Of a stretch of 64,000 nucleotides of DNA, positions 28,944 to 30,552 are shown piece after piece. Both the position numbers and the translations under genes were made by a program. Position 1 is the stretch's first letter, and each line of letters begins with the position of its first letter. The notes beneath the pieces are model-generated. The model was not told the DNA's origin and made no database searches. It was given only the letters and a program-made list of their open reading frames with translations. Source of the DNA: Larkinella rosea (GTDB taxonomy: Bacteria; Bacteroidota; Bacteroidia; Cytophagales; Spirosomataceae); the NCBI RefSeq assembly GCF_003858635.1, contig NZ_RQJO01000015.1, positions 558,001 to 622,000 of the forward strand. The letters run 5' to 3'.

Positions 28944-29540
28944 GTGAAAAACGCATCTCTTGTTTTAAACGCCGTACTGGCGGCAGCCGTAGCCGTTTTG
29001 TATTACCTGCACTTTTCAGAAAATAAGACCACAGAACCTGTTTCTGCCACGTCAACCCCATCGGCGCCCGTTCGCAAGACGGTTTATGTCAATGTCGATT
29101 CGCTGCTGACGAATTACGAATATTTTAAAGACACCCGGAAAGTTCTGGAAAGCAAACGGTTTCAACTCGACAACGAACTGAACAACAAAGGACGTTCGCT
29201 GCAGAACGAAGTGGCTTTTTTCCAGCAACGCGCCCAAACGATGACGATGGAACAGGGACGGGCAACGGAAGCCGCTTTGCAAAAGAAACAGCAGGATCTG
29301 GTGGCCTACCGCGATCGGATCATTCAGCAATTGAGTCTGGAGGAGCAGAAAAAAAACGAAGAGCTGTACAACCAGATTTACGATTACCTGAAAAAAGTGA
29401 ACAAACAGAATCAGTATGATTTTGTGATGGGGTACTCAAGAGGGGGCGGAATTCTCTATGCGGATAACTCACTGGATGCGACCAAAACCATTATTGCTGG
29501 TTTGAACAAAGAATACCAGGAAAAACAGACCAAGAAATAA
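28944..29540 (+). CDS. OmpH/Skp-family protein (third copy)
   Basis: 198 residues. The start codon is GTG. An N-terminal hydrophobic segment (about 4-22) lacks a clear cleavage site, so the protein may be membrane-anchored rather than free. VYVNVDSLLTNYEYFKDT is the OmpH opening, then a long coiled coil (about 70-150), and the C-terminal YDFVMGYSRGGGILYADN motif typical of the family. Unlike the pair at the window start, it is monocistronic between its own promoter and a terminator. Confidence 0.85.
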   Translation: MKNASLVLNAVLAAAVAVLYYLHFSENKTTEPVSATSTPSAPVRKTVYVNVDSLLTNYEYFKDTRKVLESKRFQLDNELNNKGRSLQNEVAFFQQRAQTMTMEQGRATEAALQKKQQDLVAYRDRIIQQLSLEEQKKNEELYNQIYDYLKKVNKQNQYDFVMGYSRGGGILYADNSLDATKTIIAGLNKEYQEKQTKK

Positions 29541-29565: not shown

Positions 29566-29597
29566 GCTCCACCGGGAAGACGGGTGGAGCTTTTTTT
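29566..29597 (+). terminator. Terminator after the third OmpH-like gene
   Basis: GCTCCACC (29566-29573) pairs with GGTGGAGC (29583-29590), followed by a run of seven T. Confidence 0.8.
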
Positions 29598-29739
29598 ATA
29601 CCGTTAAAAAAATAAAAAGGAATCAAACCGGTTTTTTAGAATGCCAACTGGAATACGGCATAAAATTTGTAAAGCCAAGGGTAAGATTGTATGTATTGAC
29701 AATCATTGCAATGATAAAGTCCGTTAGACTTTGAAATGG

Positions 29740-29963
29740 AAACGTGTGTGGTAACCCGTATATGTTATTCAATTCTTACTGACACATGATGTGTAAGAAT
29801 GAAAATATCCTGGGGAATGCCGGTGGGTACAGAAGGGTCTTGAGGCTGTGATTCGGCTGTACGCCTTACCGGTAAGGTTAAACACCGGCTTCACCAGGGA
29901 TTTAGTTGGATTGATAAAATTATCGATCATTTGGTACCCCGAAGGACACTTCGGGGTATTTTT
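29740..29963 (+). ncRNA. Candidate structured non-coding RNA upstream of smpB
   Basis: In the 550-base gap between the OmpH-like gene and smpB, a stretch shows dense nested pairing. There is a hairpin ATTCTTAC/GTAAGAAT (29772-29800). A multibranch domain is closed by ATCCTGG (29807-29813) with CCAGGGAT (29894-29901) and GCCGGTG (29819-29825) with CACCGGC (29883-29889). It encloses GTACAG/CTGTAC (29827-29832 with 29857-29862) and CCTTACCGGTAAGG (29864-29877). A perfect intrinsic terminator follows. A near-consensus TAGACTTTG precedes the assumed 5' end (about 29740, approximate). It is not tmRNA (no tRNA-like end or tag frame), RNase P RNA or SRP RNA by their signature sequences. 6S RNA is possible but unproven. 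Confidence 0.5.
29935..29963 (+). terminator. Terminator of the candidate RNA
   Basis: TACCCCGAAG (29935-29944) pairs perfectly with CTTCGGGGTA (29949-29958) over a 4-base loop, then TTTTTA. No protein-coding gene lies between it and the previous terminator. Confidence 0.85.
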
Positions 29964-29976
29964 ATTTACAAAAAGG

Positions 29977-29984
29977 TAATTTTG
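29977..29984 (+). promoter_or_regulatory. Candidate -7 element of smpB
   Basis: TAATTTTG matches TAnnTTTG; the upstream position falls in the T-tract of the preceding terminator rather than a clear TTG. The rest of the gap to 30090 shows nothing else I can support. Confidence 0.3.
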
Positions 29985-30090: not shown

Positions 30091-30552
30091 ATGTCTGATA
30101 AAACACTCGCTAAACACATTGAAATCCGGAATCGCCGGGCTTCGTTCGAATACTTCTTTCTGGAAACATTTATCGCCGGAATCATGCTGACGGGCACGGA
30201 AATCAAATCCGTGCGGCAGGGAAAAGTGAATCTGGGTGATGCGTATTGCCTGTTTCTGAACGAAGAATTATATGTCCGGCAAATGCACATTTCGCAGTAT
30301 ACGGAAGGAACGTACAACAACCACGAACCCCTCCGCGACCGGAAACTGCTGTTGCAAAAGAAAGAACTGAAACGCCTGGTCAATAAACTGACGGATCAGG
30401 GGTTGACCATCATTCCAACCCGGTTTTTTATCAACGACCGGGGGTTTGCCAAACTGGAAATTGCACTGGCCAAAGGGAAGAAGTTGTACGACAAACGGGA
30501 TACGATTAAAGACCGGGATATTTCGCGCGAAATGAGCCGGGAGCAGTTTTAG
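30091..30552 (+). CDS. smpB: SsrA-binding protein
   Basis: Binds tmRNA and brings it to stalled ribosomes for trans-translation. 153 residues: the N-terminal oligonucleotide-binding core (NRRASFEYFFLETFIAGIML, GTEIKSVRQGKVNLGDAYC), LLLQKKEL, and the basic C-terminal tail (KGKKLYDKRDTIKDRD) that inserts in the decoding centre. The tmRNA gene itself is not found in the window. Confidence 0.96.
   Translation: MSDKTLAKHIEIRNRRASFEYFFLETFIAGIMLTGTEIKSVRQGKVNLGDAYCLFLNEELYVRQMHISQYTEGTYNNHEPLRDRKLLLQKKELKRLVNKLTDQGLTIIPTRFFINDRGFAKLEIALAKGKKLYDKRDTIKDRDISREMSREQF

Follow-up and report, generated by a model that had tools for sequence, protein, structure and literature searches.

The window analysed here, a stretch of 64,000 nucleotides from Larkinella rosea, contains an intergenic region between two forward-strand genes. 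On its upstream side lies ompH/skp, of the periplasmic chaperone family (28944-29540; Pfam OmpH, E 2e-25), and on its downstream side lies smpB (30091-30552; Pfam SmpB, E 1e-56). The gap between them holds an undescribed small RNA of the Larkinella/Spirosoma group of soil bacteria. A preliminary description of the locus had placed a structured RNA, complete with a terminator of its own, directly upstream of smpB, at 29740-29963, between two intrinsic terminators and without a reading frame. The 3' terminator was recovered in a terminator scan as the strongest terminator-like match nearby, a 12-pair stem at 29933-29960 with a T run (29933-29965, forward strand), and it was kept in 9/9 Larkinella loci. 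In the related genus g5 no clear terminator was visible between the RNA and smpB. The upstream boundary is a terminator-like hairpin of ompH at about 29569-29598 (GCTCCACC...GGTGGAGC plus a T run, forward strand). This hairpin was read in the sequence and is missing from the list produced by the terminator scan; counterparts after ompH could be seen by eye in relatives. A conserved reading frame was not found in the ompH-smpB gap, where relatives differ by indels whose lengths are not divisible by three, in agreement with the description of the region as non-coding.

Folding of 29740-29963 gave -87.5 kcal/mol compared with a mean of -59.2 kcal/mol for shuffled sequences (z -5.7), and 0 of 200 shuffles folded as well. 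The fold contains a three-way-junction core at 29809-29898 (forward strand), for which z values of about -1.5 to -8.6 were obtained in relatives. Stem P1, formed by 29809-29825 with 29883-29898, closes the junction and is interrupted by small mismatches only. It consists of CCTGG (29809-29813) paired with CCAGG (29894-29898) and of GCCGGTG (29819-29825) paired with CACCGGC (29883-29889); both the latter stem and an outer stem had been named in the preliminary description and proved to be real. Arm P2 (29827-29862, forward strand) is built from the pairings 29827-29832/29857-29862 and 29835-29839/29850-29854. Arm P3 (29863-29878, forward strand) is variable in length, and in genus g5 it ends in UUCG, UGCG, GUGA and other short loops. 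The conserved unit is this junction of approximately 90-100 nt, about 29804-29905. The extent given earlier was correct as regards the fold; the conserved unit is shorter, and a promoter-like element at 29656-29671, discussed below, lies further upstream. Retention of a first 5' hairpin at 29741-29766 was not seen by eye in relatives, while a second hairpin, P0, was predicted by single-sequence folds immediately 5' of the core (29772-29801, forward strand). P0 was observed in 8/9 Larkinella (L002-L008 among the loci) and was absent from G008; its stems differ from copy to copy, for example ATTCTTAC/GTAAGAAT and CACTAT/ATAGTG.

At the DNA level, a search for the region retrieved Larkinella genomes and, beyond these, no more than two short and weak matches. 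The G008 copy, which has diverged most within Larkinella, was located by reading its ompH-smpB gap. A covariance model, R1, was built from ten aligned cores, and a genome-wide search of 222 genomes of the family with R1 added two further genera, every new copy being located between ompH and smpB. A second model, R2, was made from 14 sequences, with genus g9 left out. R2 matched 25 of the 222 family genomes in five genera, namely Larkinella (9/9), g5 (8/36), g9 (5/5), g3 (2/4) and g29 (1/1). The copies of g9, although outside R2, showed the same fold and loop and likewise sit before smpB. Genus g5, in which the occurrence of the RNA is patchy, is Spirosoma-like and probably is Spirosoma, since the region around its smpB promoter resembles the one at a named Spirosoma locus. 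Among 395 sampled Bacteroidota genomes, R2 gave no match outside the family. The position between ompH/skp and smpB was found for 25 of the 26 copies. The 26th copy is a second core in G002 (L011:1513-1613, the same as L063; G002:C79:114272-114372), situated away from smpB; its loop is intact, it shows compensatory changes and no -24/-12 element was seen near it by eye.

Covariation was observed in all helices. In the 14-sequence alignment 94.2% of the cells were paired and 24 of 35 pairs changed on both sides, so that the covarying stems across relatives proposed as a check in the preliminary description were indeed found. Arm P2 had 97.2% of its cells paired and double changes in 5 pairs, and arm P3 had double changes in 6 of 8 pairs. 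Double-change cells numbered 73 compared with 24.4 in shuffles, and the covariation score of 0.468, compared with 0.221 in shuffles, was not reached by any of 500 shuffles. When the partners were slid as a control, pairing fell to 33-42%. All counts from this alignment lean towards the structure, since the 14 sequences were fitted to R1. For the same structure, an alignment of ten Larkinella sequences made with MAFFT before any model existed gave 94.6% paired cells and 7 double-change pairs, with 2 of 500 shuffles scoring as high. We regard it as practically certain that a real structured RNA is present at this locus. The earlier claim of such an RNA upstream of smpB was borne out by the fold, the 12-pair terminator, the covariation and the synteny in five genera. 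One part of the RNA does not vary. The segment UGAGGCUGUG (29841-29850, forward strand), comprising the apical loop of P2 (29840-29849) together with its closing G, is identical in 26/26 copies, including copies that R1 or R2 recovered without having been built from them. The adjoining P2 stem changes freely while UGAGGCUGUG stays fixed, and over the RNA as a whole most of the sequence differs between copies with the fold retained.

The RNA was compared with known families. A scan of the whole window with all 4227 models of Rfam 15 at gathering thresholds returned tRNAs only and no match at the RNA locus, and the best weak match in a permissive scan of the locus had an E value of 0.97. The failure of the preliminary description to match a known class therefore held against the full library. 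No earlier description of the RNA was found in the open-access literature, and it constitutes a new family among the structured intergenic RNAs, a kind already known. A function of the 6S type had been suggested earlier, and a lineage-specific 6S RNA sequestering the housekeeping RNA polymerase would be one reading of the locus. The RNA is independent, intergenic and within the 6S length range (100-250 nt), as are 6S RNA (RF00013) and 6S-Flavo RNA (RF01685) in Bacteroidota, and 6S is known from Bacteroides and Flavobacterium (PMC7366714, PMC9723704), which counts for this reading. Neither RF00013 nor RF01685 matched in 59 genomes, that of L. rosea and 58 relatives, which leaves a 6S gene unaccounted for in them; weak sub-threshold matches to 6S-Flavo in three genomes were all away from this locus. 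However, 6S RNA is a long hairpin or rod with a large open central bubble, whereas minimum-energy folds and covarying pairs make the RNA described here a compact three-way junction, and what is invariant in it is a hairpin loop of 10 nt and no promoter mimic. Furthermore, the RNA is patchy in g5, whereas 6S is usually kept. A 6S function is therefore considered highly improbable.

tmRNA is the partner of SmpB, and the position of the RNA next to smpB is reminiscent of tmRNA (RF00023). However, the genome has its own tmRNA elsewhere (G000:C10:2063685-2064056), and the RNA at smpB has neither a tRNA-like domain nor a tag frame. The tmRNA (L144) shares the 8-mer TGAGGCTG with the loop of the RNA, in the same sense and inside the tmRNA P2 helix; this was taken as probably due to chance.

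In Larkinella, the terminator of the RNA is followed by a sigma-A type -7 box, TAATTTTG (29977-29984, forward strand), and then by smpB. The box was assigned from the sequence and from counterparts in relatives, and it conforms to TAnnTTTG, the -7 consensus for the phylum (PMC9723704). TAnnTTTG counterparts precede smpB in g5 and in a Spirosoma locus without the RNA (L066). As the smpB promoter lies after the terminator and is found also where the RNA is missing, the RNA most likely does not serve as an smpB leader. A cis-acting leader or attenuator, in which the RNA senses and the terminator at 29933 decides smpB transcription, is favoured by the constant position of the RNA before smpB in five genera and by the location of the Larkinella terminator between the two. 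It is opposed by the promoter that persists at the RNA-less locus, by the lack of a clear terminator in g5 and by the minimum-energy fold, in which no alternative pairing between core and terminator was seen; we consider it quite unlikely. The RNA very probably forms its own transcription unit. The link to translation stress that had been drawn from the position next to smpB is not supported, since smpB appears to be transcribed separately; a link to protein stress through the sigma-54-like promoter described below is possible. A conserved AAACCTC/AAACCTG motif was observed just upstream of the smpB promoter (L054-L062, L066, L032), with or without the RNA, and is possibly an operator. A pairing of the loop with the downstream AAACCTC of g5 was considered but given up: the motif is part of the smpB promoter region and occurs also at loci that lack the RNA (L066, L032).

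A candidate sigma-A promoter (TTAGACTTTG) immediately preceding 29740 was rejected, as inspection revealed no conservation in other Larkinella. Further upstream, a -24/-12 element resembling a sigma-54 promoter, CGGCATAAAATTTGTA, was found at 29656-29671 (forward strand). It scored 15.6 of 19.5, and 5.5% of shuffles scored as well. Its -12 position reads GT and not GC. Judged from this element, transcription may begin at about 29682 and not at 29740. A counterpart, GG and TTG at sigma-54 spacing, was present upstream of the RNA at every ompH-smpB locus. The element of L. arboricola (G005), CGGCACAGAATTTGCA, is nearer to the consensus and was equalled by 0 of 200 shuffles, and in most relatives shuffles reached the best element score in 0-3% of trials. 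The elements have the spacing GG-N10-G(C), and their invariant columns are the GG, the TTG and T tracts, with noise between; the published sigma-54 consensus is TGGCACN5-7TTGCT (PMC12316311). The gene for sigma-54, rpoN (PF04552), was detected in 38 of 39 genomes searched, including that of L. rosea. A strict -24/-12 site, one of few that are intergenic, was located 93 bp before a Lon-like gene in a g5 genome (G217), the gene being recognised by eye from its translation. In Flavobacterium psychrophilum, sigma-54 controls genes for chaperones, Lon and Skp together with a putative regulatory RNA (PMC9723704). The small RNA Rfp36 is listed there under a -24/-12 promoter, with Skp/OmpH and Lon among the members of that regulon (PMC9723704); R2 gave no match outside the family in the phylum sample. 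From the promoter elements, control of the RNA by sigma-54 appears likely. On the other side, no genome-wide enrichment of the strict sigma-54 consensus over a reversed control was seen in three genomes, and the GT at -12 of the L. rosea element departs from it.

In g5, g9 and g3 (L054, L056-L062, L148-L154) two -24/-12-like elements were found upstream of the RNA. Their separation is exactly 120 bp at 13 of the 15 loci, and the remaining two deviate by one (119 or 121 bp). The 104 bp between them share 20-37% identity between genera, and column information reached its maximum on the two elements and fell almost to noise in between. Between the second element and the loop the distance ranged from 96 to 109. 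Larkinella has a single element, 70-195 nt before the loop. Paired elements were absent, by eye, from Spirosoma loci without the RNA. Fold and length led to the rejection of a second RNA or a gene within the 104-bp spacer: the fold z was mostly near zero (below -2 in 2 of 13), and a fixed frame is incompatible with spacers of 103, 104 and 105. By a rough count the paired pattern was about 2.5 times commoner genome-wide than a reversed control, and no other peak at 120 bp was found among the matches listed. Another conserved stretch, which is not the RNA locus, was noted in three Larkinella genomes (G005:C1:1452931-1453053; G003:C3:1631-1752; G001:C1:3588111-3588233). It has two GGCAY-N5-TTG elements, measures 122-123 bp overall and contains ATGAATAAAAT. 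A tandem array (G007:C20:58013-58781; period 126 bases), which looks like protein-coding repeats, also produced serial matches to the pattern.

The RNA would then be an independent small non-coding RNA with its own promoter, most likely used by sigma-54 RNA polymerase, and in Larkinella it would end at the terminator described above. From a rigid three-way junction one arm would project with the fixed ten-letter UGAGGCUGUG, the loop serving as a working surface that binds one conserved partner, either a protein or another RNA. Action in trans through the loop is slightly favoured. Its role would most likely be in protein or envelope stress, because sigma-54 of Bacteroidota drives chaperone, protease and envelope-stress genes. 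With the partner left open, the reading as a whole, that of an independent small RNA under sigma-54 whose fixed loop meets a partner in trans, is about evenly balanced between right and wrong. The patchy occurrence in g5 (8/36) counts against it. A comparable case is provided by the GlmY-type small RNAs of enterobacteria, which are transcribed by sigma-54, structured and act through a protein partner; in sequence and structure they are unrelated to the RNA described here.

Two forms of this explanation can be distinguished by the partner of the loop. In the first, the RNA would be a trans-acting antisense RNA with the loop as mRNA seed, and an invariant single-stranded loop of 10 nt does fit a seed that serves several targets. 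Perfect matches to the full loop complement, CACAGCCTCA, were no commoner than those to a reversed control in nine genomes. The 60 complement sites were mostly inside or antisense to reading frames; there were only four homologous pairs among them and no recurrent site near a start codon, and no long shared complement was seen in ompH or smpB. As the complement is not enriched and no gene recurs with a start-proximal site, a full-length mRNA seed is unsupported, and the antisense form is considered unlikely. A protein partner, or an RNA partner reached by shorter pairing, remains. In the second form the RNA would be a protein-binding decoy or scaffold with the loop as the protein site. The identity of the loop and its closing pair amid free change elsewhere agrees with this, as does the lack of target enrichment for the loop complement; on the other side, there is no protein candidate. 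The protein-binding form is regarded as speculative. Equally speculative is the fuller picture of a new sigma-54-dependent small-RNA family of the protein-quality-control regulon, in which, in several genera, DNA geometry alone would keep the paired elements 120 bp apart and the invariant ten-nucleotide loop would act on a protein.

To our knowledge, few structured RNAs have been described for Cytophagales. The covariation support is good, and the RNA can therefore enter family libraries at once. If the link to sigma-54 is true, the RNA is tied to the chaperone regulon of the phylum. The paired elements are the stranger observation; two elements 120 bp apart and unconserved between would be an unusual promoter geometry.
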